A DNA stretch of 64,000 bases from Thermogymnomonas acidicola JCM 13583 (GTDB lineage: Archaea; Thermoplasmatota; Thermoplasmata; Thermoplasmatales; Thermoplasmataceae): the NCBI RefSeq assembly GCF_001316105.1, contig NZ_BBCP01000002.1, positions 1-64,000 on the forward strand. Direction: 5' to 3'. The notes beneath the pieces were generated by a model that saw only the letters and a list, made by a program, of their open reading frames with translations, made no database searches and had not been told where the DNA came from. A program made the translations under genes and the position numbers. This document shows positions 13,737 to 51,468 of this stretch, one piece after another (within the stretch, counting starts at the first letter, position 1; every line of letters starts with the position of its first letter).

Positions 13737-14207
13737 GAAAGCAACGGGGGGGGAAAGAGGAAGCATCCCGATAGGACACCAGATACATTCATAACATTCC
13801 TTGCCAGGCTAAGGGCAGTATACGATGTACCTTACAGACCATTTGAAAGCTTTGCAAGAATATTTGCAAAAGCCACAGGTACAGCAACAGTATCCTGTAC
13901 AAGCATATTCCGAAGAATAAGGAAGATCGTGCTTGAACTCCCTATTCCCGTGGAAGGCCCCTGGACTGTGCAATAGATACAACAGGATTCGAGAGCATTA
14001 TCAGGGTGACTATATGGGAACAATGTGGATCAAGGAGAGAAGGTGATGATCAAAGCTCCAATCTGTCCCTAATGGGTGTCCCTGTGCTATCATTTGCAAT
14101 CGTAGACGGACGTGTTCCATGATGCCAAAATTGGAACAAAAATTCTGAAAGAAATTAGTGACAGGACAAAGAAAATATTTGGAGGCAAGAGAAATGATTC
14201 CAAGTAA
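13737..14207 (+). pseudogene. Remnant of an IS4/IS5-type DDE transposase
   Basis: Broken frames on the plus strand carry DTFITFLARLRAVYDVPYR, then, after a stop at the same place in the fold, IDTTGFESI (first catalytic Asp region of DDE transposases), and finally HDAKIGTKILKEISDRTKK. Several substitution-type stops separate the parts, so it is dead. No clear terminal repeats were found. The 210 bp before it hold nothing recognised. It marks the left edge of the AT-rich region. Confidence 0.5.
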
Positions 14208-14216
14208 ACTCACAGT

Positions 14217-14528
14217 ATGTTAGGAGTGTACATACAGTCATATATTTATATTGGTGTTGCCATTCTATGCACTGTCAAAGGTTCACTGATCGTTTTTACC
14301 GTTGAAAGGTCCGGAAAAGGTGTCAGCCCTGCATCATATTCTGCGTTGTACAGGAAGCTATATGGCTACAACAACTCATCCCACTACGGAAAGTACCACT
14401 CCAGGATCCCAGGATTCCTTGACCGGATTGGATACATCAAATACGCAAATGGTGTGATCCTTGTACCGAGTGAGAAGAGCAGCCTTGTTATCGAGTACCT
14501 CAAGGAGAACGGTGCAAAGGTTTTCTAG
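14217..14528 (+). CDS. Hypothetical protein, about 100 residues
   Basis: An open frame whose last 80 codons look protein-like (GVSPASYSALYRKLYGYNNS ... IKYANGVILVPSEKSSLVI). The beginning is doubtful; translation may start near 14280. It has an alpha/beta composition with no membrane segment. It follows the transposase relic directly and could belong to the same old element. No family is recognised. Confidence 0.35.
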   Translation: MLGVYIQSYIYIGVAILCTVKGSLIVFTVERSGKGVSPASYSALYRKLYGYNNSSHYGKYHSRIPGFLDRIGYIKYANGVILVPSEKSSLVIEYLKENGAKVF

Positions 14529-14687
14529 TGGGAGGTGGAGCTGTCAGAGAGGGAGGAAAAAGATCTGCGGGATGGGAAACATTAGCAGAACCGGCTAAAC
14601 TCTATTTATATATTTATTCAACACAGCACTGATACTGTGATTTTATGCTTAACTTTAAGAAATCTAGAGTTATGCACCATTGTGAGA

Positions 14688-15855
14688 ATGGCCTATATAG
14701 GGGATTTCATAAACCATGGAAAATCATTAAAAACCAGTGGGACATCAATTATAATCCTTCTCTCTCTTCTAGAAGATGTGGATTCCATCGATGTGTTTTG
14801 TCCGCAAGTGAATGAAGATATTGAAGAATTTGAAATCCCACCCAAGGTTAAGTTACAAGAATTTTATACATATGATGATTCAATATCGATTCTTCGTCTT
14901 TTGAAGATAAAATGGAAGAATTATGACACTGTCATTTTCAATATGCTACCAACCGGCTTTGGTAATGGGACTCTTGCAAATGCCATTGCTCTATTTGTAC
15001 CAATATTATTGGTGAAGTTTTTCAGAAGAAAAAATATTAAGATTATATACCACAATTCAGTGTTCACCAATGATGTCAGGAAATTAGGTTACAACTCTAC
15101 ATTCGACAAGATACGGTCATTTTTTCTCAGAATAGTTGAAAGGATCTTGTTCAAAAATGTCGCTACATTTGTACTACTTAATTTATATAAGAAGCGAATA
15201 GATGATGCAATAGGATATAATAAAGTACATTTTTTGAATTGGAAATATCTCGAAACAGTTCCTACGCTCTATCTAAATGAGATAATAAATTTTCATGATA
15301 TAAAAACTCAAGATAGTAATATCCCAACAATACTTATGCATGGTTCATGGGGGGGGCCCAAAAGAACATTGAATTAGGTTTAATGGTTCTAAAGAAACTT
15401 AAAGATGAAGGTGAGGAATTTAAGTTAGTAATTTCCGGTGGTATAAATCATCATTTCCCAGACTACGAGATAAAATTTAAGGAAATCCTGCGTTCATATT
15501 CCGGGCTAATTGATGAATACCTTGGTCCTATTACAGAAAGGGAGATCACGAAAATTTTTTGGAAGCCTCTCTATTAATTCTACCGTATAATGCACCAGGG
15601 GGGCTTTCTGGAGTGCTGGAACAGGCCATATTCTTTGAAGTGCCAACTATTGCTATCGATTTTCCTGAGTTTAGGGAGCAAGCGGCAGGAGTGGGCTTTG
15701 TGAGACTAGCAAATTCTGTGAGTGATATAGAAGACTATGTCCGCGAATTTCTAATGAATTGGGATGCGTATAATGCAAGACAAAGGAGGATAAATATTAG
15801 CAAAAAGATAACACAGGCAACTGATAACATTAGAGTGCTTTTACGCAATGATTAA
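14688..15855 (+). CDS. Glycosyltransferase, GT4-like (GT-B fold)
   Basis: About 385 residues from ATG 14688 (MAYIGDFINHGKSLKTSGTS). The N-terminal Rossmann domain is followed by the linker ILMHGSWGGAQKNIELGLM and the C-terminal donor domain: EEFKLVISGG, then LLILPYNAPGGLSGVLEQAI, matching the E-x7-E-like region of GT4 enzymes. Frames break at an 8-G run (15349-15356) and an A/T run (about 15551-15560). GC content is much lower than in the first 13 kb, suggesting recent acquisition. It would transfer a nucleotide-activated sugar to a growing glycan at the cytoplasmic membrane face. It is the first gene of a plus-strand glycan block. Confidence 0.75.
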
Positions 15856-15937
15856 CGAAATGACGCATACCCGTTGAATCATGCAATCAATCATAAGACG
15901 AAAAATTTTGATATGATTAGAATATATCACCCTGAGA

Positions 15938-16642
15938 ATGCTGTCACGCCAAGAGAAAAAGCAATTTAATAGGTATATGTCTCAATTTGAGAATTTCAGA
16001 AGAGTTGAACTTAAGAATGGTGTGGACCCGGAACCATTCAGGATGCCGTTGTTCAGTAAAAATTTTGCCAAGAGGGTTGGGGGGGTGTTAAGTAAATACA
16101 GGCATATAACGCAATACCTTAAAGTAAATTCAAAGAGAGGAAAAGCGCTGGATTTCGGCACAGGGTTTGGAGCATTTCTTCCAGTTTTATCCGAATTGAA
16201 CGATGAGGTCATAGCGGTAGACGCATTTGACGATCAATTAAGGGCAGCCAAAGATCTCTGTCTCTATATGGGTCTGAAAAATGTGACAGTGTTGAAAGTA
16301 GCAAGAATTAATGGCCTTTCTGGGTTCGAAGATTCCACTTTCGATACTATACTTGCCACTGATGTGCTTGAGCATAATCTCAATTATAAAGATATAGTAG
16401 TTAAGTTAAAGCGTGTATTGAAAACCGGAGGCCCGTTAATTGTGTCACTTCCCCCCCGGGAACATTTGCTTTACAGAATCTTTGCAAGGAGAGAAGTTGA
16501 ACATGACAGGGAGAGAGGACACGTATATCACTCAAGCAAGGGAGCTGACGAGGTGGAACTGTTTTTGCTTAAACACTTTGATCTAGAATTGAAGGAGAGC
16601 GCGCACACATTCATACATTATACCTTATTAAGAGGTGGGTGA
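15938..16642 (+). CDS. Class I SAM-dependent methyltransferase
   Basis: 234 residues, intact. Motif I ALDFGTGFGAFLPVL at about residue 68, the acidic strand-2 end VIAVDAFDDQ, then FDTILATDVLEH (motif post-II) and LKTGGPLIVSLPPREHLLY (motif III), typical of UbiE/Methyltransf_11 types that methylate small molecules or sugars. It sits 82 bp after a glycosyltransferase and overlaps the next start by 4 bases (GTGA), so it is probably translated as part of the glycan operon. Sugar methylation is the natural inference. Confidence 0.8.
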   Translation: MLSRQEKKQFNRYMSQFENFRRVELKNGVDPEPFRMPLFSKNFAKRVGGVLSKYRHITQYLKVNSKRGKALDFGTGFGAFLPVLSELNDEVIAVDAFDDQLRAAKDLCLYMGLKNVTVLKVARINGLSGFEDSTFDTILATDVLEHNLNYKDIVVKLKRVLKTGGPLIVSLPPREHLLYRIFARREVEHDRERGHVYHSSKGADEVELFLLKHFDLELKESAHTFIHYTLLRGG

Positions 16643-16965
16643 TCACGAGGATACTTTCTTATTCTGATCATTTGGTCGTTGGTGACATTGCAAAAGCCGT
16701 CGCTATACGAGACGCCTCACGTCTTGATGGGCACGAATTTGTCAAAAATAACATGATGTTAGAAATAGTCCATTCTATTTACGATTATATCTGCGATACT
16801 ACTCTCTTTAAAGCAATATCAAACCTATTCTATCAATATACCTCTATTCTATTCTATCAATATACCTCTATTCTCACTGAAATGATAGCCGATAGGTATA
16901 TTGTGAGCATTCCATATGGTTTCTTTGGCTTTAAATTCGTTGTTGATGCGATTGTAAAATGTTGA
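16639..16965 (+). CDS. Hypothetical protein with an internal tandem repeat
   Basis: 108 residues from a GTG that overlaps the methyltransferase stop. The centre contains FYQYTSIL twice in a row, encoded by two 24-bp copies (16828-16875). The C-terminus is hydrophobic (IPYGFFGFKFVVDAIV). Composition is AT-rich like its neighbours. No family is recognised; it may be the N-terminal remnant of a larger glycan enzyme. Confidence 0.4.
   Translation: MITRILSYSDHLVVGDIAKAVAIRDASRLDGHEFVKNNMMLEIVHSIYDYICDTTLFKAISNLFYQYTSILFYQYTSILTEMIADRYIVSIPYGFFGFKFVVDAIVKC
16828..16875 (+). repeat. Two tandem 24-bp copies inside a coding region
   Basis: Unit TTCTATCAATATACCTCTAT plus four bases, repeated twice head to tail; the copies differ only at the last base. 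The length keeps the frame, duplicating eight residues. Likely recent slippage or unequal exchange. Confidence 0.8.
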
Positions 16966-17052
16966 TTACTTTGAAATTTATCACTATGTGGGAGATGACC
17001 GAGCAATTAAGACACCAGGCAGGGTAGAGAAATGCTGCGCCAGTGGTGAAAG

Positions 17053-18149
17053 ATGAGTATTGGAAAAGTTGTCTTAGTAAGCGATCAGCCAATTACTACC
17101 GGGATAGTAGGTATGCTTGGGCTTTAGCAAAAGCGCTCTCAAAGAAACAAATTGATGTGAGTCTTATATATAACGGATATTTTGATCCTGGCTACAAAGG
17201 CGAATATTTTGACGTTATAGAATCTTCAATTTTTAAAAAAACAACTAATTATCTTGCCATTCCTCTGGCTAGAAAAATGAACTCGGTGGCCCTTAAATTC
17301 TACGCTAAAGAGTATGAAGATTCGATAGTGCATTTTTGCGGTTCAGATTATTCCGGCCTGAAATTGTTTAATAATACGGTAGCAACGATTCACGATGTAA
17401 GGTTTGATCTTTTATTCGACTTTAAAAGCGGTGGATTTATTCGCAACTTGCTCGATTCTATATATAGAGATTTTATAAACCTAAAGATGTTAAGGGATGT
17501 CCGGAGCGCAGCGAAAATTATTTCTATCAGCAACGTAGTTAAATCTCAATTAGAAAGACATAGGATAAGATCCCAAGTGATACATCATTGGATAGATTCC
17601 TCAGTCTTTAAAAAAAGAGATAAAGCACTATCAAGGAGGAAATTGGGGCTACCAGAAAATTCGAAGTTGATCTTAAATGTCAGTAATGGAACAAAAAATA
17701 AGGCGTTAAGCTTTCTTCAGGAAACCGTTAACTTATTACCTGAAGGATATATGTTAATAAAGATAGGAACTCCATTGAAGGGTAGGAATATCTTGAACGT
17801 TGGCAAAGTTCCAGATGAACTTTATCCGCTTTACTTTAATGCAAGTGATCTGTACCTGAATGTCTCGACTTTCGAGGGCTTTGGCATACCACAAATAGAG
17901 GCATTGGGATCTGGTTTGCCAGTATTAGCCAGAGATATTTCAATAAACAGGGAGGTTTTGGCTGAAGCAGGTATGTACTTTGATGCTTATATAGAACCCC
18001 CCCATGATCTTGCGCAAGTTGTCGTGCATTCCATTGAGGAATATGAAAGAGATGGATTGGGAGATAAGATGGAGAAAGTCGCCAGAAGGCTAAACGAGGA
18101 CACCGCAATCAGCGAGTATTTGAAAGTGTACAGCTCTATAGGGCATTAA
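17053..18149 (+). CDS. Glycosyltransferase family 4 protein
   Basis: About 366 residues. The start is ATG 17053 (MSIGKVVLVSD) with one missing base near 17088; beyond it the frame reads ANYYRDSRYAWALAKALSKK, a common GT4 N-terminus. The acceptor domain has IHDVRFDLLFDF. The donor domain reads LNVSTFEGFGIPQIEALGSG, the classic GT4 E-G-F-G-x-P-x-x-E-A signature, followed by LPVLARDISINREVL. A 7-C run at the Pro-Pro of IEPPHDL probably adds a residue. Role: sugar transfer from a nucleotide sugar in surface-glycan assembly, between a methyltransferase and a membrane protein of the same block. Confidence 0.87.
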
Positions 18150-18165
18150 CGGAGGCAGATGAATA

Positions 18166-20278
18166 ATGAATTTTAAATTAAAGCTGGTCTTCAAAAAGCA
18201 TGCTAATCTTGCAAGAGATGATCTGGGCGGAGATGGATTGAGGTACATAGCGTTCGTCATATTATTTATCGCTAATATATTATACATAGCATATTTTTCT
18301 TCACTTTCCCTTATGAGAATGTGGTCATTAAACGCCAGTGTATACGACCTTGGGGGGGTTGCAATGGAGCAGGGCTGGCTTGTCTTTCACACCCACTGGA
18401 CTCTACATCTTTTTATTTCAGATTTTGGATTATATTCTGGAAGATTCCTTCTTTCTCCCCCCCTTTTTATTTTAGCGAATTTCAGTCTGATTCTCGTTGT
18501 GCAGACTGTTGCCATAGCAATACCGTCTTTTTTTGTTTACGGGATCGCTTTAAAGTTTATCGGAAAAAGGCTACCATCCCTTTTGATTTCACTATCGTAC
18601 CTGATCTATTTCCCACTGGCCGGTATGAATCTGTTTGATTTCCACTACATGGCCTTCTTCCCATTGTTTTTCCTGGCAGCGGTGTACTATTATTTTGACA
18701 ATAAGTATACGGCATCGTTGATCCTCTTTCTTGTTGCGGGCCTCGTCAAGTTCCCATTCATTGCATTTTCCGCTGGTTTCCTGATATTGGAAGGCATATC
18801 GCATCTACGGGCAAAGGAATTTAACCTACTCCCAGAGAACAAAAGGAAAACCATGTTCATAATCAGCGGCGTTTTGCTTTTCATGCTTGTTTTCGCCATA
18901 TCTTATTATTCAGTGTCCTTGTTTGGGGGGGTATCTTCCTATCTTCATTCTGGACCGTTTCAATTCAGCAATGTAAGGGACGATATAGACAATAAGATCT
19001 TCACCCTTCTGCTGATATTCATGCCGTTCCTGGCGCTCCCATTGTGGTCTAAGTATTCCTTGCTCCTCATTCCCATTATGGCTTTTGCTCTTTTTTTCAC
19101 CAACGGTGCATTTATGTTCCGGGCCTTTTTCACGATCAGTATTCCGCCATATTGGTGCCATTTGTGTATCTGGCGTTAATCGACGGTCTTGTAAACCTTA
19201 GCAGCGGATCAGATTCCATTAAACATATGCGGCAAGAAACGACTAGCGAAAATATCCGATCTGACAAAGATCTCAAGAAAATTGATGGAAGGTTTTTCCT
19301 GAAGGTTTCTGTTGCCCTTATCATTTCCATGATTCTCTTTGCCCTCGTGTTTCAGCCTTACGGGCCGCTAAACGCATCATCTCAGGATGATTACCACCTG
19401 TCTGCTATAAAATCGTACAATTATACCGTTTATGAGAACATGCTCAAGGTTGCATCCCTCATACCAAAAAACGTGAGTGCCTCCGAGATACTCGTGGAGA
19501 ATAACATACCCTTCATCTTCCCTAGGTAGATAGCTACGGTCTTAACGTCTCTAATCCTCTAACTGCACCCTTAGAGGTGGACTACAATTATAACTTCTTT
19601 TATAATTTTACGGAACTTGGCCCCCCCGACGGAGAGTACATCCCAATCGTTCCCGAATATATAATTATGTATCCCTATGGAGGCATGTATAATCAGGGAT
19701 ACTGGGGGGGATATGCCGGCACAGATGGGCCATACCCTCATAACATATCAAATGCAGCTCTCATCGATCATCTTGTTTCAACGCACCATTACGGTATGGT
19801 GGCAGAGGCTAGTGGCATTTTTCTGCTAGAGCTGAATTATTCAGGCCCTCTTAGATTCTATGTCCCATTCAATTATTACTATCCGCCCAATTACTTTAAC
19901 ACCTATCCAGATTCAAGCCTTACGATGGCAGGGATTACTGGAACAGATATTAGAAACGGGGGACTATTCTGGGGCCAAACAGTATTACTTCCAGGCACCT
20001 ACAATATTACCTTTTCCTTTACAGGAACCTCGCAGAGTTCGAATAACTCTTTGATCCTAAATGTTGCTCATGATAATGGATTGATCGACTTAGCCTCTAG
20101 AACTATATATCCCCCCCATAACCTCACCAGTCTCGATAACTTTAATGTAACTTTCACTGTGAGTACAGAAAGAATACTTGCATACACCATATATTCCGTA
20201 TGGGTACCAAACTGGGAAGGAACTATAACCTTTACCGGTATACACGTCACACAGATCAAACCTCCAGGTCAAAATTAG
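18166..20278 (+). CDS. DUF2079-family polytopic membrane protein
   Basis: Joined from three pieces, about 700 residues. The N-terminal half has eight or more membrane helices with the family-typical YDLGGVAMEQGWLVFHTHW and GMNLFDFHYMAFFPLFF, then AFFHDQYSAILVPFVYLAL across a missing T at 19126-19130. A second slip lies near 19524-19530. The C-terminal half is an extracellular domain rich in Asn-x-Ser/Thr. DUF2079 proteins resemble GT-C glycosyltransferases and are common in archaeal surface-glycan loci, so lipid-linked sugar transfer on the outer face is plausible but unproven. It starts 16 bp after the GT4 gene, probably in the same operon. Confidence 0.78.
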
Positions 20279-20415
20279 CGCTACGTTGTTTCTCTATGCT
20301 GGTTTAAAGCTTATCGTTCATAACCTCAAAGCGTGACAGGTTGAATCAGGCATTCGAACAATGGAGATCGGATATTCAAAGCATAGAATAAACGCCCGGT
20401 TTCATCAAGATTATT

Positions 20416-21421
20416 TCAGAGGGGGGGGAATTTTCTATGCAGCCTGTACATGGAAAGTAGGTAAGAGAATGAAAGATAAGCTCTTTTTGAGATTAAAAGA
20501 ACAATTCCCAAAAAAATATGCAATGATATGTGGGGGGGGATAATTTCCGGAAATGTGTACCCATTTGAAATAAGGGATGGCCTATTTGATCCTCTAGGCT
20601 GATCCACGTTTTTTCTGGGCAAAAGCAGAGTATAGGAAAATATAATATGACTTCCTCAGCACCTCAATATCCCTTATCTCCCTGTGCTGGAATATCTCCA
20701 GGAACAACGAATGCAACTTGACATTTTCCATAAGCTTATCCTCTCCCTTTATTCTGTATCTTTTGAAGTCGCCAGAGAGCGAGGTTATTCCTTCATTATG
20801 AACTCTATAAAATGTTAGTTTGTCGGTAATCCACCCAACATCATATCCACTGGCAAAAACACTATATAAGGCAAGGCTGTCATCCGATGTATTGAAAAAT
20901 GAAAAATAGTCTAGATACCTTATCCCTGCACTTTTTCTAATGCTTATTGAACTGAGATTTCTGTCACAATTATTCCTTAGCGCATCCTTTAAACCGTTTG
21001 CAATAATTAAACGTGCATTTCTCCTGGGTAAATCATTGATTATATATGAATAGGCTTTTGGTATCTTCGCCTATTGTTAAGCTTCCGTTGTGGATCAAGC
21101 CGAGATTTTGGTTTTTCTTGAAGAGAGGCACTATGGTTTCAGCCCTGTCTTTAGCAATGATATCATCAACCAGAAAAAGAACAATGTTGGAGGATGCCTC
21201 CTTTACTCCGATCTCAACTAGTTCGCTCTTGTTCTTTGCCGTTTCAGCAAATATAATTTTGATCTTTCTGTCTTTATCAGTTAAGTTTAAGTGCTCTGCG
21301 GGCATCTTTGTCACTAAAATAATCTCTAAATTTTTAAAGTCTGATTCAGTGCGGATGATATCGCATCTTCCAGAAATGGCCTTTTAAAGAACGCGGTCAA
21401 GACAATCGTAGCCTTGGGAAT
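20416..21421 (-). CDS. Glycosyltransferase family 2 protein, paralogue of the 42.4-43.4 kb gene
   Basis: The N-terminus ATIVLTAFFKRPFLEDAISS and the acidic loop NIVLFLVDDIIAKDRAETIV give a GT-A fold with a D-D-x metal site. The middle NLSSISIRKSAGIRYLDYF and the C-terminal hydrophobic helix HIFLGIVLLISKRAYLSF follow. Frames slip at A/T runs near 21328, 21046 and 20600. Alignment by eye to the 42356-43368 protein is collinear to the end. There is no ATG; an ATT at 21421 aligns with the ATG of the paralogue. It directly follows a glycosyltransferase remnant, repeating the gene order of the paralogous pair. Confidence 0.7.
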
Positions 21422-21423
21422 AG

Positions 21424-21570
21424 TTAAAATCGCCTCCTCTTGCTTAAGATATAAAGCTGATCATAATACTTGCTTTCGAAATAGGCACGATTGCAGATGT
21501 CTTTAAGAACTCTAAATTCTCCTGTTCCAAACGAAGACGCAACGAAGTAGCCAAGCTTAAATTTTATCCA
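21424..21570 (-). pseudogene. C-terminal remnant of a glycosyltransferase cut by the IS
   Basis: Only the last 48 codons remain: GTGEFRVLKDICNRAYFESK ... LSKRRRF, stop at 21424-21426. They match the C-terminus of the 43372-44386 gene (TGEFRWLRDLSNKLYFQEK). The upstream part is replaced by the IS end at 21571, and the missing N-terminal part is not on the other side of the element. Confidence 0.7.
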
Positions 21571-22568
21571 TAGGGCGTCTCATGTTTTAGCAACTGACGA
21601 TTTTCATTATCTCCCTTGGCTTTTCTCCTGCTTTCATGTTTGATACAACCACGAGATTGTATGCAATTGCCTTAAGGCCAATTGCAATATCATATGATCT
21701 GTTCCTTGTGTACCAGATATTCTCTGCCCTCATGATCTCTTCAAGTATTGAGAATGTCCTCTCTATTTCCCATCTCAGGGAATACAGCGAAGCGTATTCC
21801 CTGAGATCAATTCCGATCTTCCTGTTCATGGACAGTCTTTCAGGGATAATGCCCCTTCTTCTGTTTGTGTAAATCACAGGAAGAGAATGTGTGTTCTCGA
21901 ACACATAATCGTATATGTCAGATGTATCATATGCTGAGTCTGCAAGAATATATGAGAAATTCCTGACAGAATCCACCAAGTCATGTGATACGCGTGAATT
22001 ATGCATGTTACCTCTGGTAACAATCCAGTCCATGACAAGGAGGGAATCCACATCCAGTGACATATGGCACTTCCTGCCATATGTCCATCCCTTTGTTGTC
22101 TTGGACCATCCGCTCTCAGGATCCTTATAATTTCCCCCCGGTGTTTCATTCTCATTGCAGTGGAATGCTTGGATGTGTGGATCATGAAGGAATCCACCGC
22201 TGCAATTTCCTTCATAGAATACAGGAATACTATCTCACGGTTTATTGCATGCAGATCAAATTTCCTTGCTCTTCTTGACAGGGTCTGAAATGATGGTATC
22301 TCGCTGATGCGAATCATCCTGAGATATTCCTCATGATTGGTGAGGAATATCCTGGCTGATGGATAGGAAATTCCGGAAATCTGCAGCAGCACAAGAATCT
22401 TCAGGATCTGCCGATCTGTATATTTTCTTCTCCTCTGATCTGGCGAAACAATATTGTTTATGATATCCATTATCAATGGGATATGCTGCGTGGGCATATC
22501 CCAATATTCTCATTCTGTTAATAATGTTCGACATCTGTCTGACTACTCATGAAATGTGAGACGCCCTA
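21571..22568 (-). mobile_element. Insertion sequence, IS4/IS5-like, about 1 kb
   Basis: Bounded by inverted repeats TAGGGCGTCTCA...TTT.A at 21571 and its complement ending at 22568; the first 12 bases are perfect, and similarity extends a few bases further. The interior is filled by one transposase gene. Flanking bases show no clear target duplication, and the two flanks belong to unrelated genes, so a deletion or recombination followed insertion. Confidence 0.85.
21587..22497 (-). CDS. DDE transposase of the IS
   Basis: About 303 residues in two frames joined near a 6-C run at 22134-22139. The N-terminal helical part DQRRRKYTDRQILKILVLLQ is followed by the first catalytic Asp region AAVDSFMIHTSKH, then WTYGRKCHMSLDVDSLLVMD, the second Asp in ILADSAYDTSDIYDYVF, and the Y-x2-R-x3-E region YSLRWEIERTFSILEEI. 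This is the IS4/IS5 DDE layout. The C-terminus MKIVSC ends just inside the left repeat. Relics of the same end occur at 32056 and 38431. Confidence 0.85.
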
Positions 22569-22900
22569 ACATGTATAACATTATTCTTAACCTTTGAAAG
22601 TGCATCATCGTTTCTCGCATATATGGCCTTGAAGCTACATTCCTTGGGTATCTCATCAACCATTTTATAGGTCTCATCGTAGTGCTGACCATGGTCGATG
22701 AAAAGCGCTGGAATCATATCCATCTTCAGCTCCTCGCACGTGGTCTTTACCAGATGCAGAACAACAGTGCTTTCCTTTCCTGCTGATCAGACAACAAATG
22801 GTCTTTTGAACCTCTGAAGCGCATTTCTGATTACGATCCTGTCTATATCCCTCTTGGCGTCAAGGGATAGGTGGCGCTCTGCCCTGACGGTAGTATCCAT
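22569..22900 (-). pseudogene. PAPS-reductase family (PP-loop) gene, truncated by the IS
   Basis: Starts ATG 22900: MDTTVRAERHLSLDAKRDID, then RFKRPFVV-stop-SAGKESTVVLHLVK. The S-x-G-K-E-S-T segment is the PP-loop of phosphoadenosine-phosphosulfate reductase-like ATP pyrophosphatases. The codon before it is TGA (22797-22799), where the family has Trp. Reading continues (IPALFIDHGQHYDETYKMVD) until the IS end, losing the C-terminal half. Sulfate or thio-metabolism was its original role. Confidence 0.75.
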
Positions 22901-23214
22901 GATTGGCAGTAAACAGCATCTATATTAGTTTCTTCATTTAATCCCCTCCTCCCACTAGGTACGGGCAGGAAAATTCATGGGATCTGAATTCTAGCCTATG
23001 GCATCTGGTGGATACTGACTGAACGGCGAAGGCTGAATCCTCCACATGTCCAGTTAACTGCGAAATCACTGCGCCAATCGTATTGTACGTTAAGGAGCAA
23101 AGAAGTCAGGCAATTATGGATATTATTGCAATTGTTATAATAGTTGCATCATCTTTTAATTGTAAAAGTCATATATTATAATAATATTTTAATATGTTTT
23201 ATTGATCCTAGGCA
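22901..23214 (+). other. Intergenic region with a TATA-like element
   Basis: About 310 bp without a gene. It becomes strongly AT-rich after 23120. The ATATTTTAATAT stretch centred near 23190 lies about 25 bp before the AbrB-like start and is the likely promoter, giving a leaderless transcript. Confidence 0.4.
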
Positions 23215-23376
23215 ATGGCTCATGGAGGAAAATTGATAGATACGAGCAAGGCTACTCTGACCAACCGCACATTGAGGATCTCATTAACAAAGAGGATAGC
23301 GAAGCTTCTTGATGCGTCCCAAGGTGACATAATCGGGTTTTATCAGGCGGATGGTAAATTTACATCGCTGTCGTGA
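23215..23376 (+). CDS. AbrB/SpoVT-like DNA-binding protein (53 aa)
   Basis: MAHGGKLIDTSKATLTNRTL-RISLTKRIAKLLDASQGD-IIGFYQADGKF fits the swapped-hairpin AbrB fold: a basic strand, then the 'I-P/T-K-x-I-A-K-x-L' helix, then 'GD-x-I-x-F' and a final strand. At 53 residues it is the size of small archaeal regulators or antitoxins. No toxin gene is adjacent. It precedes the transporter and ThDP-enzyme block and may regulate it. Confidence 0.7.
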   Translation: MAHGGKLIDTSKATLTNRTLRISLTKRIAKLLDASQGDIIGFYQADGKFTSLS

Positions 23377-23600
23377 AATGACAGAATAAATAATTTTCAG
23401 GTATCATGCTGAAATGTAGGTCAACATTATATTGATAGTATCTGCGATCATAATTGCCTCGTCAGATCGGTTTGAACATTGTAAATGGAAGAAGATATTT
23501 CAGTAAAGATCCCTCGGGAAATGTCCATCAAGCAAAGCCGATTGCCATTATATTTTCCTCCATTTTCTATCTGCAATTTCTTCTAATGTATTTGAAATGG

Positions 23601-23610
23601 GATATAAATA
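23601..23610 (+). promoter_or_regulatory. TATA box of the MFS/ThDP block
   Basis: GATATAAATA is centred 26 bp before the ATG at 23632, the classic spacing for an archaeal leaderless transcript. Confidence 0.55.
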
Positions 23611-23631
23611 AAGCTTGCTCCATGTTAGAAT

Positions 23632-24972
23632 ATGGCTGAAAAATTGACAGAGGTTAAGAATGCAAATAGGCCGGTAGGGCACATACGGTGGACGATAGTC
23701 CTCATGGTCTTTGGCTTCATAACGTTCGACTATATAGACCGTGGGCTTGTCACCTCAGCGCTTCCGGTGCTGACAACGGAATTCCATCTCAGCCCACTGC
23801 TTCAAGCAGCAATCGGAGACGGATTCACCTACGGATATCTTATAATGAATCCAGTAGTAGGATACATACTGGATCGCTATGGGGGGGCGAGGCTTTCAGT
23901 GACGAGATTTGGGCTTGGATGGGGGGGCGCAGTGCAGACCATAACCGCCGGAGCTTTCTCGGCAGCCTATCTGGTCATAGCGAGGGTGTTCCTGGGAATA
24001 ATGGAAGCCGTAGGTTTCCCTGGGGGGGTCACAAAAATTACCGCGGAATGGATGCCTAGACAGGAAAAGGCAAGAAGTGGAACCATAGGGGGGGACAGCG
24101 GTGTCAACGTTGGAATAATACTCGGCTCCCTTCTCCTCCTTGGGGTCGACCTAATCATCCCATCCAGCATTGCATGGAGGTATGCGCTACTTATAAGCGG
24201 TATCCTGACCATCCTGCTTTCCTCTGCGCTGATCTTCATACTGTACGATACGCCTGAAAAGCATCCTAAAATCAGCAAGGAAGAACTTGACTATATAAGA
24301 TCGAACCAGGAGAAAGCTGTTGAGCAGGTAAAGGCACCAGTGTCCAGCTGGTTCAGGACCAGCGATTACTGGGGGGGTTCCATGATGGGGGGGCTCGGTG
24401 CACAGGCTGGTATATTCTTCGGTCTCCTTACATGGCTTCCACTCTACCTCTATGAGCCAGGCATTTTACACTCACATTCACGCTGGCCTACACGGCACTG
24501 ATATGGGGGCTTCGGATTCATAGGAGAGATAACCGGCGGTTTCGTCATAGACTACATAAACAGGACTCGCGGCCCAAACACCGGAATGAAGGTTGGCTTC
24601 ACAGTGAGCTCGCTCGGCGTGACGTTCGGTCTCTTGGCAACAGCATTGGCAAGATCGCCTATCCTCGCAGTTGAGATCCTTGCGGCGACCTTCTTCTTCC
24701 TGAGGTGGTCTGGCATACAGTGGGCTGTAAGCTCATTCCTCGTACCCAAGGAGTATGCAGGACAGTGGGGGGGTGGCCACATAGGATTCTGGGAGACGCT
24801 GTGGGGGGGCATAATTGTACCTCTGGCCTTCGGGGGGGAGTTGCTGTCTGTTACGCACAAGTATACGCCCGGGATATACATGTTTGTGCTCATTGGCATC
24901 GTCTACTTCGTCGGCACAGTAATATTTACCAGGTACCGCCCACTGATGTTGAAAACGGCTGTTCCCTCTTAG
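23632..24972 (+). CDS. MFS transporter, anion:cation symporter type
   Basis: About 440 residues and 12 helices. FDYIDRGLVTSALPVL and TKITAEWMPRQEKARSGT match the ACS family (hexuronate, glucarate, phthalate, tartrate type), which imports organic acid anions with protons. Frames slip at 24464-24467 (a missing T) and at a 5-G run at 24505-24509, where family spacing gives LIWGFGFIGEITGG. Eight 7-G runs are in frame, each adding one Gly relative to family spacing (for example RYGGAR for RYGAR). It heads the block with a ThDP enzyme and aldehyde dehydrogenase, suggesting uptake of their substrate. Confidence 0.88.
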
Positions 24973-25057
24973 GGACAGCATTTAACCTTTTTTGATACCT
25001 TTTTGGTTTAATGCATTAGATAACAAGTATATTAACAAATTTCGGTTTCTTTTTCAT

Positions 25058-26855
25058 ATGGCATCAGAGAAAATTGCTAAATCTGGAGCGGATATAATAG
25101 CCGAGTATCTCGAGAGAAATGGCGTTGAGTATGTCTTTACTCTGACAGGCCATACAATATTGAGTCTGTATGAAGCGATAAGAAAGACGAAGATAAAACT
25201 CATCGCCGTCAGGCACGAACAGATAGCAGCGCATGCCGCTGATGGTTATTTCCGGGCATCCCATAAGCCAGGCATCGTGATAACACATATCGGTCCGGGA
25301 CTCCTCAACGCCACCACTGGTGTTGCCACGGCGGCACTCGATTCATCACCACTCATAGTAATATCTGGAGACGCCCCCGTCCGTTTATGAGGGAGCTGGA
25401 CCACACCAGGAAATAAACCAGGTCACCGATCTGTCCCAGTATCTTGTATACGTTCCCTTTGTAAAGCGGGCTTGGAGAGTAAACCACGTGGAAAACATAG
25501 AGAGAATAATGGATCGTGCCTTCTCAATAGCTCTGGGTGGCAGGCCCGGAGTCTCGCTCGTTGATGTACCGATGGATATATTCGCATTAAAAACTGACAA
25601 GCATAGCCTATACACCACCAGGCACAGCCTGAACGAAGCCAGGTTTGCACCGGATCATGAGACCATAGAGAGAGCCGTTGATTTTATACTAAAGCATAAA
25701 AAGATACTCATACTGGCAGGCGGTGGTGTCAGGCTATCGGAGGCAGGCAGGGAGATTGCTGATCTGTCAGAGGCTCTGAACGCTCCAGTGGTTTCGACCA
25801 TGGGAGGTAAGGGAACCTTTCCGGAGCACAATGAACGTGCGCTGGGCTTTCTCGGTGGCTGGGGGGGGAACCCCCCCTATGCCAACAGGGCATCGCTTGA
25901 GTCTGATCTCATAATAGCCGTCGGCACGAGGTTTGGAGAGGTAAATTCCAGCTCATGGATAGAGGGCTACACCTTTGATTTCAGCAAGACCCATTTGCTG
26001 CGCATAGATATTGACGAGAAGGAAAGATCAAAAGATTATCCGGAGGATATGTTCCTTCAGGGCGATGCCAAGACCACCCTGTCAGAGATCATCGCCGAAC
26101 TGAAGAAGAGATCTGCCGCTCGGCCTGCTGCAAATTCAAGCTGGTACTCTGAGTTGAGAAAGGGCCTTGATGACTATTACAGGGACTTCATGAACTGTGA
26201 AATGGGCAGCGACAAGATAAAACCAAATTACGTAATACGTGTTCTCCAGGAGCTGATGGATGAAGACCGTTCCATATCGCTGATCACAGACGTCGGCTGG
26301 AGCAAGAACGGCATAGCGCAATATTTCAGGATAGACGATCCCCCCCTGAACTTCATCACCCCCCCAGGAGGCCTGGCGACCATGGGCTTTGCCCCAGGGG
26401 CGGCTGTCGGCTTCAAGATTGGAGCTCCAGACAGGAAAGTCATCGCAGTTGTTGGTGATGGTGGCTTCAGCTCAGCCATATCAGCGCTCTTCACTGCCGT
26501 TCAATACAGCATCCCTGTTGTTTTTCTGGTCATGAACAACTGGAGTTTCGGCACCATTCAGGGACTGCAGAGGTCATACTTTGACAGGAAATTCATAGGC
26601 ACTGCCTTCACGGGTTCCGGAACTGATCTATACAATCCAGATTTCGTGAAGATAGCAGAGGCGTCCGGAGCCCTGGGATTTGATGTGAAGAACGGATCAG
26701 AACTCAAGGCTACTGTCAGAAAGGCCCTCAACGGAGGCAGACCTGCTGTCATAAACGTTCCAACCGATCTTGAACCCGATGTGCCGATAACAGGCCATTG
26801 GTCAATAACCGATATCTATGCGGGCAACGTGAAATACATGTTCGATAGAAGGTGA
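25058..26855 (+). CDS. ThDP-dependent enzyme, acetolactate synthase/benzoylformate decarboxylase-like
   Basis: About 598 residues. The Pyr domain starts SGADIIAEYLERNGVEYVF, with the catalytic Glu in VRHEQIAAHAADGYFRA. The central domain is ILAGGGVRLSEAGREIADL. The PP domain has GDGGFSSAISALFTAVQY...NNWSFGTIQ, the G-D-G-x(24-27)-N ThDP/Mg motif. A 5-C run at 25374-25378 breaks the frame; with four Cs it reads DAPSVYEGAGPHQEINQV. The segment GGWGGNPPYAN is two residues longer than the family's GMHGTPYAN at a G8 and a C7 run. It would decarboxylate or condense a 2-oxo acid; the true substrate is unknown. The aldehyde dehydrogenase start follows by 4 bp. Confidence 0.85.
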
Positions 26856-45912: not shown

Positions 45913-46933
45913 CTATATGACGATCCTGTGCCTGATGCCCATGAACCTGGAGAGGCTCTTCTCCTGGCTAATGAGCAATTTATAGTAATCGACGGTGTGC
46001 ATCTGCGGGAGGTCTTCCAGGCCTGCCTTGCACCTCTCTAGTATCTCGCTGATCCCGTACTCGAGGTCGTACTTCGTACTGAATTTCAGCAGGTCCCTGG
46101 CCAGTCGAATCGGACCCTGTAGGACCTGTTATCCGGATCGCCATAAAGTTCTATTCTGGTATCGCCGCCCAGTTTCCTCCTTATGGCTTCGGCCACATCC
46201 CTTATCTGCAGGTTCAGGCTCTCTTTGCCTATGTTGATGTGTTTCCCACCGATATCGTCCTCGCTCCCTATAGCGGTGATGATGGCCCTTGACACGTCCT
46301 TCACGTGAACGAAAGGCCTGTACTGCGTCCCATCCCTCATCATCCTTATCACACCGTTCTTATAGCCGTAAAAGGTCATAGCGTTTATCACCAGATCCAG
46401 GCGGAACCTCTCTGAGTACCCGAACACTGTGGCGAACCTCAGGGCAGTGCTCCTGAACCTGCTGTCGTTCAGGGCAAGGTTGTCCCTTTCCACAGCCACA
46501 TTCGCCTCAGCATAGGTGGTCAGTGGGTTCACAGGTGTCTGTTCATCACAGAACCCTTCCCTGAAACCGTAGACGGAACAGGACGAAGCCACCACATATC
46601 TCCCTGCGCCGAGCTTCTTTGCCAGTCTCGCGATCCTAACCCTGCCGATGTAGTTTATGTCCCACGTCGACATGGTGTTAAGGTTGCCGGCAGGATCGTT
46701 TGACAGCGCTGCCAGGTCCACTACGGCGTCAAGGCCCCTCAGGAGGTCAGGGTCGCACGTTCTGATGTCATCCCTTATTATCTTAACCGAATCTCCGAAA
46801 GACTCCGAGGGATCCGAGTAGTCCAGGAAGCCCCCCCTGTCCATCACCGTGACCTCATAGCCGTTCCTGACCAGGTCAGGTACCAAGACCCTACCTATGT
46901 AACCTGTTCCCCCCCCGTTACAAGTACCTTCAT
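45913..46933 (-). CDS. NAD-dependent epimerase/dehydratase (extended SDR)
   Basis: Start MKVLVTG at 46933, then an 8-C run (46909-46916) that should be six to give VTGGTGYIGRVLVPDLV. The active site has ASSCSVYGF and TTYAEANVAVERD, where the usual Y-x3-K is replaced by Y-A-E-A-N. Substrate-binding parts are RFATVFGYSERFR and YRPFVHVKDVSRAIITAI. Frame slips near 46095, and the C-terminus continues LARDLLKFSTKYDLEYGISE to TAG 45913-45915. About 338 residues. It should epimerise or dehydrate a nucleotide sugar for the glycan block; the missing active-site Lys makes the activity uncertain. Confidence 0.78.
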
Positions 46934-47132
46934 GGCCTATCCGCGTCCCATCGGTGGTGCATAGATAAAACTTCCCGCCTAAGCCCCCCCTGTGTAGCAC
47001 TAAGAAAGAATTTCCTCAAAACTGGTTGGTTCATACCCGCTTTGGCACATTATGGAGCTGTTTAGTGTTTCTCGTTCCGGAAACCTCGCATAGAGTCCCA
47101 ATAGAAACGGTGCTGCCCTATTTAAAAAATGT

Positions 47133-47198
47133 AAATGTATAAGTAAAGATCATAGGAAGATGAGCAAATGTATAAGTAAAGATCATAGGAAGATGAGC
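47133..47198 (+). repeat. Two tandem 33-bp copies at the PNGase gene end
   Basis: The unit beginning AAATGTATAAGTAAAGATCA is repeated twice without a spacer. The right copy overlaps the last codons and stop of the 47183-49008 gene, so the duplication copies the gene's 3' end into the intergenic space. Confidence 0.8.
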
Positions 47199-49008
47199 CT
47201 CTCATACAGGATCGGCTGTATGTAGTCCGGGCCGTAAAGGTTGTTGCTTCCTGCCACTATCTCATGCTCGTATCCGGACACGATGCCGGACGACACTGAC
47301 CTCACTGAAACCTTCAGGTCTTTCGATGTGAACCCGGATGCGTGTGATACCGCCCCAAGGAGGCCAGCGGTCGGGCTTATTAGTTCGAGCTGCGAGGTGA
47401 CGAAGGAATCGTTGCTCGTCACTGTGTTGTTAATAGTGGTCACAATACCGTTCGAGACGCTGACCTGCTCCCATGACTGCAGCAGGTTAGTGAGACCAAA
47501 GGTCGCGAAACCGTACATCGGATATCCGCCGTTCGTCGTCTTTGTGATCTGTATCTCGAACAGCGTGTCCATCCTCAGGGGGGGGAAGTTGTACTGAACG
47601 ACCGAGATACTGCTTTGGTGTCCGACCGATACTGTGCTGACGAACTGCATCTCCTCGCTCTGCGTGAGGTTTTCCCAAATTGGTGTCAGGCTCTGGTTGT
47701 TTATGAACGAGCCAGATGCGCTGTCTGTCGCTATAGCGATCTTGCCGTCCATGCGGAAAACTGATGTGGAACTGTAAGAGTAGTCCATGGACTGGTTGAA
47801 GTACGCCTGCTGTGAAACGCCAGGAATGCCGACCTGCACCGTGGTCACAGGTGACATGCTGAAGTAGTACGGGCCAGGTGTCGCGGGAGACGCACTGGGC
47901 TGGTGTAAAGGAGTAGCGAGGCAGTAACGACGAAGTACGGGTAGGCGAGGTCAGGCATGCTGAAGTTCCAGACATGAGTGCCCTCAATGAACCCCCCCAG
48001 GTCTCCCGTGACGTCCTCGAAGTAGAACCTGTCATGGAGGGTGAAGGCTCCAGTCACAGGCCTCCATGCGAAGAGGTCTATACCACCCGTATTTATATAT
48101 GGGAACGGCAGCACCGATGCCACGGCCCTGTTCGACACGTTCACCAGGAGCATGTTGAAGGAGGGCTCGTTGGAGTACCAGAACTCCTGGAAGGAGAAGC
48201 CGTAGAGCCATATCTGTATCTCTGCCCTGTACACATCGCTCGGCACCGTCACCTCCGAGGTGACGTAAGGTTTCGATGGTGTCAGGTGGTAGTCGAACGA
48301 AGACATGCTCGGGAGGATCGGTATGATCAAGTTCGGCTCACTTGTTGCCGGGAACTGCGCGTCTGCCGGGTAGAAGTAAAGTGTGATGTTGCTCTCGAAC
48401 CTGCCCTGGACTATCGTGCCCGGAGAGTTCCACTGCCAGTATACCTTGCCTGTGAAGAGCGCCTCGTAGAGCGTCAGGTTCCTGTAGACCGTCCAGTTGC
48501 CGTACTCCGGCGATGTGCCCCAGAGGAGCGTGTTGTTGTCCACGTTGAAGGAATACCCGGAGTCGTATACAACGCCTGAGGCGCTCCCGTTGAACTTCAA
48601 AAGGATGAGGGCCCAGCCCGTGGGGGGGCTCTGTGGGGGGGCAACGAACGAGCCCGAGATTGCCTCCCTGCTCGTTGGTACCGAGGTGTTGTTCCTGTAA
48701 ACTATGAAGTCATGCACAAGTTGCACCACGACAGGTTGCGTGTTTGGTATCACAGGAGGCAGTGAGGCCAGGACTGTGGACGAGTTGTATATCGGGTATC
48801 CGGACGGGTCACTCTCGCCCAGCGCTCCGGACGAAAGATCCAGGAGCCTAGATATGCTGGCAGGTGGCACTGGATGGCCACCTTGAGGTGCGGCCCCGGA
48901 GAACCCACTCAGGTTTCCTGAATGCGGAATCCCCCCCTGCTGTGCCAGACCGAACCCCAGGACAACAAGCGCTACCACAACCGCCACTGCGAGTGTCAGG
49001 GTACGCAC
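47183..49008 (-). CDS. Exported PNGase A-like peptide:N-glycanase
   Basis: Signal peptide/anchor MRTLTLAVAVVVALVVLGFG. The central region NLIIPILPSMSSFDYHLTPS, VPSDVYRAEIQIWLYGFSFQ-EFWYSNEPSFN matches the peptide N-glycosidase A (amidase A) family hallmark of plants, fungi and some archaea, whose members cut the bond between Asn and the first GlcNAc. Frame slips near 47875-47900; the C-terminal beta domain (PVTTVQVGIPGVSQQAYFNQ ...) follows. About 608 residues with many N-x-S/T sequons of its own. It would act outside the cell. Next to the epimerase and glycan genes, it may trim or recycle surface N-glycans. Activity is not proven. Confidence 0.75.
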
Positions 49009-50104: not shown

Positions 50105-51468
50105 ATGACATCTGTCATAACCTTTGACAGATTCCTCATGGGCTACACCCTCGGCGCACACATACTGATAGTGACGCTGAGCATAGCCCTCGCAGTCTTC
50201 GTCTCAACATTCGAGTTCCTATCCCTCAGAAAGAAGGACAGAGACTACGACATCCTGGCCAGGAAGCTCGCCAGGGCCCTGGTTATATTCTTCGCCGTCG
50301 GAACAGCGAGCGGCACTGTCCTGGCGGTCGAATTATTCACCCTTTGGCCACCGTTCATGGTGCTGATAGGCAAGGTGGACATCCTGCCATTCTACTATGA
50401 GATATTTGCGTTCTTCCTGGAGACAATAAGCCTCGTCCTCTACGTCTACTACTGGGACGCCTTCACAAACAGGTACAAGCACTGGGCCCTCTCGCTGTTC
50501 GTCGCCATCGGCACTGTGATGTCCGCAGTCTTCATAACCATGGTCAATGCCTTCATGAACACCCCCCCCGCTGGCTTCAACATCAGCGAGTACCTGGCAA
50601 CGGGAAAGATAACCGGAGTGAACCCACTGGCGGCTGTTGCGAACCCGTCATCGTTCATAGAGGTCAGCCATGTCACAACAGCGACATTCGCGTCCGGAGC
50701 CTTCGTCCTCCTCGGCTACTTCGCCTACAGGTACATGAAGAACAACGACGCCTCGGCAGGGAGGTCTACAGGAAGGGCATGGTCGTTACGGCCATAGGTG
50801 CGCTCATCGGAGTAGTCCTCGCAGGCATTGCAGGCGATTCCTCCGCAAGGATGCTCATCTCGCTCCAGCCCCCTCAAGTATGCTGCCATCGAGCTGAACC
50901 TGCACCCAATGGTGAACGCACCGGAGAGGATTGGAGGCATAATGATAAACGGCGTGCCAGAGTTCTACATAAACATACCCAGGCTTCAGTCCATCCTTGC
51001 GTTCCTCTCCTTCAACTCTCACCAGGCGGTGCCCGGCCTGTCACAGTTCCCGAAGTCCGAGTGCCCCCCCCGCTTTTCGTGCACCTGACCTTTGACGTGA
51101 TGGTCGGCGGCGGCACGCTGATAGGCCTCTTCGGACTCTACCTCCTCTACAGGATCGTCAGGAAGAGGCCCATAACCTCCAGGGTCCTCCTCTACGGCAT
51201 GATCGCTTCCGCTGTGCTCATAGAGATAGTGAACGACGCGGGCTGGGTGACGGACGAGGTGGGGAGGCAGCCATGGATCATCTACAACGTCATGACCGTG
51301 TCGAGCGCGGCAAACACCTCACCTTCAGTGATACCCCCCCTGGGCATTGGCATAATCCTCTTCTACCTGATAGTTGTGCCGTTCACCTTCTACTTCGCCA
51401 ACAGGGTCTGGGTCAGGAGGGAGGAGAAGGCCACAAAGCAGGTGGCAGGTGAGGCAAAATGGTCATGA
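50105..51468 (+). CDS. cydA: Cytochrome bd-type quinol oxidase subunit I
   Basis: Polytopic membrane subunit carrying the hemes; oxidises quinol and reduces oxygen. MTSVITFDRFLMGYTLGAHI gives the N-terminal haem ligand His. VELFTLWPPFMVLIGK corresponds to the conserved F-G-x-N-W-P region, SHVTTATFASGAFVLLGYFA to the second His helix and HLTFDVMVGGGTLIGLFGL to the Met ligand helix. Frames slip at 50757-50765, a 5-C run (50869-50873) and an 8-C run (51063-51070). About 450 residues. The stop overlaps the start of cydB by 10 bp, so they are translated together. Confidence 0.87.

Follow-up and report, generated by a model that had tools for sequence, protein, structure and literature searches.

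What does the gene at this locus encode, and on which glycoproteins would its product act? It lies in a stretch of 64,000 nucleotides of Thermogymnomonas acidicola JCM 13583, the whole of which is called the window here; the host is probably an acidophile. The initial annotation proposed an exported glycanase of the PNGase A type, that is, a peptide:N-glycosidase, inside an archaeal surface-glycan locus. The features discussed below are collected in Table 1.

Table 1. Features of the PNGase locus, in window coordinates
Feature	Position	Strand	Description and basis
PNGase A family gene	47183-49008	minus	two ORFs as assembled
N-terminal ORF	47845..49008	minus	387 aa, GTG start; predicted signal peptide and two-jelly-roll PNGaseA domain PF12222; ORF list, Pfam, model
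C-terminal ORF	47183..47857	minus	224 aa, other frame of the same gene; ORF list, orthologue comparison
D149 codon	48562..48564	minus	positional equivalent of PNGase F catalytic Asp60; Asp in 65/65 archaeal homologues covering the site
E168 codon	48505..48507	minus	conserved acid in 63/65 homologues, possible third catalytic residue
Q274 codon	48187..48189	minus	just before the catalytic Glu; Asp in 65/67 homologues
E275 codon	48184..48186	minus	positional equivalent of PNGase F catalytic Glu206; Glu in 67/67 homologues
One-base difference site	47895..47900 (near 47897)	minus	window lacks one base relative to the orthologue, which splits the gene; DNA alignment with G151
Perfect 33-bp direct tandem duplication	47133..47198	minus	overlaps the PNGase stop codon; sequence
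Nucleotide-sugar epimerase	46086-47000	minus (as PNGase)	PF01370

Family, fold and catalytic positions

The N-terminal ORF matches the PNGaseA profile of Pfam (PF12222) at residues 118–340 with E 1.8e-19 and 70.1 bits, the cut-off being 25.3 bits, and the match spans positions 31–276 of the 336 in the profile. The C-terminal ORF has no match in Pfam, and taken alone it yields only chance matches (E >0.08) among solved structures; NCBIfam has no model for the window protein. A single-sequence query matches PNGase Bb (9vla) with E 6.1e-12, and a profile of 28 archaeal homologues matches it across some 410 positions with E 3.6e-42. Judged by these comparisons of sequences, the relationship to the PNGase family is far beyond chance.

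The AlphaFold2 model has the two-barrel PNGase fold (pLDDT 75.8, pTM 0.73), with low confidence for the leader and the loop 307–321. In a Foldseek search of the PDB, each of the best 17 matches is a PNGase or a hydrolase annotated as PNGase-like. PNGase Bb heads the list (E 2.6e-19), followed by PNGases of Bacteroides and Elizabethkingia, PNGase F among them (1.3e-9). The N-terminus, MRTLTLAVAVVVALVVLGFGLAQQ, is by eye a hydrophobic leader whose second residue is basic, and residues 2–17 form the first helix of the model; hence the protein has a predicted secretion signal.

PNGase F and zebrafish Ngly2 each need an Asp and a Glu (PMC12753239). Both have counterparts here, D149 and E275, which align with PNGase Bb; their equivalence to the PNGase F residues was judged from position and motif rather than from a superposition of coordinates. 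Together with E168 these are the putative catalytic residues, all of them kept according to the alignment. The amidase A hallmark noticed earlier, FSFQEFWYSNEP, is present at residues 271–282. Thus profile, predicted fold and conserved residues confirm the protein as an exported member of the PNGase A family, as was proposed from the sequence. The assignment thereby withstands the refutation set for it at the outset, which was the absence of a significant family match or of the catalytic residues.

Among known enzymes, the protein is most naturally compared with almond PNGase A, PNGase H+ of Terriglobus roseus and PNGase Bb, which it resembles in profile, predicted fold, the positions of the Asp and the Glu, the export signal and the low-pH setting; its C-terminal extension is partly aligned with PNGase Bb. 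It differs from them in being archaeal and in having Gln for Asp before the catalytic Glu and Ser for Arg after the catalytic Asp. With the PNGase F family (1pnf, Ngly2) it has in common the two-jelly-roll fold and, by position, the two catalytic acids; however, neither the N nor the C Pfam domain of PNGase F was found in it, PF12222 being its sole match, and the identity in the structural alignment is about 8–12%.

Reading frame and quality of the assembly

The probable orthologue in genome G151, which we take to be Thermoplasma acidophilum DSM 1728 (the species is inferred), is one intact frame of 632 aa on the minus strand (G151:C1:1429673-1431568). Its identity to the window protein is 87–89% across both ORF parts: the C-terminal ORF is 88% identical to residues 401–621 of the orthologue, and conservation after the frame break equals that before it. 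The base missing near 47897 accounts for the two reading frames. Over 587 codons compared with the orthologue, dN is 0.064 and dS is 0.77 (dN/dS 0.083), so purifying selection has acted on the gene.

The split could also be real, making the gene a pseudogene of T. acidicola with a truncated product after a one-base deletion. The broken frame itself is what one would then expect, but the low dN/dS and the high identity of the part beyond the break argue against this reading, as does the state of the assembly, and we consider it highly improbable. The assembly comprises 1.74 Mb with a marker completeness of only 50.5%. The gene for subunit I of cytochrome bd oxidase is also split, into two overlapping ORFs (50105–51468), and the epimerase ORF has its likely normal start in another frame, where there is a run of G. 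Moreover, the density of runs of 7–8 G or C is about 39 per 10 kb across 464 kb of the genome (the whole window and sampled stretches of contigs C1–C8 of its assembly, G000) compared with 0.04 in G151. Within the PNGase gene, most of the long runs are three-base insertions relative to the orthologue. The excess of runs is probably an artefact of assembly or base calling, which adds residues and can break frames. Given the intact orthologue, the purifying selection, the other split genes and the abnormal runs, the split of the PNGase gene is most likely an assembly error.

Two further features of the runs may be mentioned. Runs of four G or C are scarce, as if many GGGG and CCCC had gained three bases, and identical flanks are seen both with and without the expansion. 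At the 3' border of the gene, the tandem duplication listed in Table 1 is a possible scar.

Neighbourhood, distribution and probable gene exchange

The neighbour is a nucleotide-sugar epimerase, as had been noted, and the PNGase gene ends 183 bp from the start of this ORF. Genes for dTDP-rhamnose and glycosyltransferases lie near it in the window; five glycosyltransferases were recognized by Pfam among a part of the window's ORFs, and a fragment of STT3 (oligosaccharyltransferase) is encoded in the genome. If this neighbourhood were functional, the enzyme might trim or recycle N-glycans on glycoproteins of the cell's own surface, and the same-strand epimerase, the other glycan genes and STT3 favour such turnover. 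However, the G151 orthologue is flanked by Nre, radical SAM and GNAT genes and by unmatched ORFs, none of them related to glycans. Of the family's 77 genomes, just two, that of the window and G151, have the gene (the next best protein is 38% identical), though the surface filaments of several Thermoplasmatales have been modelled with N-glycans (PMC12448462). With the recent transfer described below also speaking against it, turnover of the cell's own glycans seems quite unlikely. A function in the glycan-assembly locus, assumed at first, was dropped after the synteny test, as the linkage to glycan genes is not conserved in G151 and the gene looks transferred. Neither does an S-layer, initially suggested as the source of test glycopeptides, fit as the target: the Thermoplasmatales are reported to have no paracrystalline one (PMC12448462).

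The family had been thought to have only scattered archaeal members. In a profile search PF12222 was found in eight of 61 near relatives, in 17 of 390 genomes of the same phylum and, for another archaeal phylum, in 28 of 349 genomes; Sulfolobus acidocaldarius is among the controls having it. The distribution is patchy rather than rare, and acidophilic archaea commonly have the domain. A search of the literature turned up no archaeal PF12222 protein whose activity has been measured.

The tree features two Thermoplasmata clades besides one of Thermoproteota. The Thermoproteota proteins (about 600 aa, Sulfolobus type, mostly one per genome) belong to the same family as the window protein and are of similar size, but they form a separate clade (support 100/99) and keep Arg after the catalytic Asp. 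The window protein and its G151 orthologue are a pair (support 100/100) on a long stem inside one of the Thermoplasmata clades.

The median identity of proteins between the window's genome and G151 is 50%, and the 99th percentile is 87%. Against this distribution a secreted protein with the identity observed here is an outlier, and the best account is that the gene was recently exchanged between the lineages. Its GC content is 53.8% in G151 (genome 46.0%) and 56.4% in the window, and the direction was perhaps into Thermoplasma from a relative with higher GC. A viral origin was considered and dropped, since viral contigs and phage records contain no relative of the window protein; no plasmid match for the gene was found.

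Several other segments of the window are of interest in this respect. A second block close to G151 (23565–26377; 80% identity in DNA, 87–95% in protein), with an MFS transporter and a TPP enzyme, is a candidate for another recent exchange. The segment 21570–22584 matches several dispersed places in G151 with 73–80% DNA identity, and because of this scatter it is probably a transposable element. The region 14000–24000, with methyltransferase and glycosyltransferase genes, has a GC content of 37–43% compared with 53–60% at both ends of the window and is likely a genomic island.

Thermopsin, the proposed role and departures at the active site

In the Thermoplasmatales archaeon clean1779, thermopsin and PNGaseA domains form a single chain of 1346 aa (L165:3442-7479); no report of such a fusion was found in the literature searched. 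The PNGaseA module of this chain is homologous to the window protein, but it is of the other Thermoplasmata subfamily and has an N-terminal acid protease, whereas the window protein is PNGaseA alone. Two ORFs at contig edges, L151:2-2437 and L164:3-2690, have N-terminal parts 70% and 55% identical, respectively, to the region linking thermopsin and PNGase in L165, and are likely truncated cousins of the fusion; L151 belongs to the four-row group of the tree that contains the window protein. In L030, L140 and L034/L149, a separate thermopsin gene and the PNGaseA gene are on the same strand, 355 bp to 3.5 kb apart. The flanks of 31 loci, L140 and L149 included, amount to 262 kb, in which chance would place about 0.5 thermopsin genes. 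The count is small and the adjacency suggestive only; the firm part is the single-chain fusion. The window's own genome encodes thermopsins as well; in the window, none was found adjacent to the PNGase gene.

Sulfolobus solfataricus overproduces thermopsin-like proteases when the medium is rich in peptides (PMC3958906), and the acidobacterial PNGase H+, bacterial homologues of PNGase A, have an optimum at pH 2–2.6 (PMC4231336, PMC7348039). Together with the thermopsins fused to or located beside several relatives, these data favour a role in the degradation and scavenging of extracellular glycoproteins. We lean, if only slightly, towards an exported acid-type PNGase of the PNGase A family that degrades glycoproteins outside the cell and is encoded by a transferable accessory gene; the catalysis, acid optimum, substrate and scavenging are what we infer. 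D149 from one barrel and E275 from the other, probably with E168, would hydrolyse the amide bond that joins Asn to the first sugar. The exported enzyme would strip N-glycans from extracellular glycoproteins, and the peptide could then be digested by acid proteases such as thermopsin for uptake. The gene would thus stand outside the glycan-assembly locus. Counted against this role are Q274 in place of a nearly invariant Asp, the missing base, the lack of an adjacent thermopsin in the window and the small adjacency count. An acid-stable and possibly heat-stable PNGase would be a useful tool in glycomics, and enzymes releasing archaeal N-glycans that have no chitobiose core would fill a gap in the methods.

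The known family gains a member with two changed residues, and the question raised is that of substrate specificity. Gln at position 274 is seen only in the window protein and its G151 orthologue among the 67 homologues; as the two genomes were sequenced separately, it is not a sequencing error. The usual Asp, also present in PNGase Bb, is neither known as essential nor family-defining, and hence Q274 is not disqualifying. Immediately after the catalytic Asp, PNGase Bb and 28 of 29 proteins in the Thermoproteota clade have Arg. Every Thermoplasmata member covering the site has Ser, Thr, Asp or Tyr there, never Arg, and the window protein has Ser after D149.

The N-glycan of T. acidophilum, reportedly described by Vinogradov in 2012, is said to consist of hexoses, heptose and sulfofucose, with no HexNAc. 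If so, the initial suggestion that the host both builds and cleaves its own N-glycans may be wrong. The S-layer N-glycans of S. acidocaldarius, on the other hand, are reported to be chitobiose-linked (PMC2948927). This difference and the Arg/Ser split make a shift of specificity in the Thermoplasmata proteins conceivable; since the split tracks one branch of the tree, it may reflect a single event and is weak evidence.

How far might such a shift go? One reading is that Q274 and the missing Arg mark a protein that cleaves another glycan–Asn bond or only binds glycans. It would agree with the restriction of Gln274 to one pair, with the long stem of that pair (0.95), and with the absence from all Thermoplasmata homologues of the Arg whose counterpart in PNGase F, Arg61, contacts chitobiose (PMC12753239). 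Nevertheless, the protein retains the Asp and the Glu that correspond to essential residues of PNGase F and Ngly2, and Ngly2 has no equivalent Arg and yet is active on GlcNAc-linked glycans (PMC12753239), so we regard this reading as somewhat unlikely. From the clade-wide loss of the chitobiose-contacting Arg and the change of Asp to Gln in the pair, one may also speculate that the Thermoplasmata clade comprises amidases for archaeal N-glycans linked through sugars other than GlcNAc, teamed with thermopsin outside the cell at very low pH; this is unlikely. The thermopsin link and the Arg/Ser split lead to directly testable predictions of substrates.

A separate observation concerns the Marsarchaeota G2 genome G415, which has two PNGaseA copies (L196 and L215), one in the Thermoproteota clade and one with the Thermoplasmata. 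This suggests transfer between phyla, and the copy grouping with the Thermoplasmata has Ser after the catalytic Asp.
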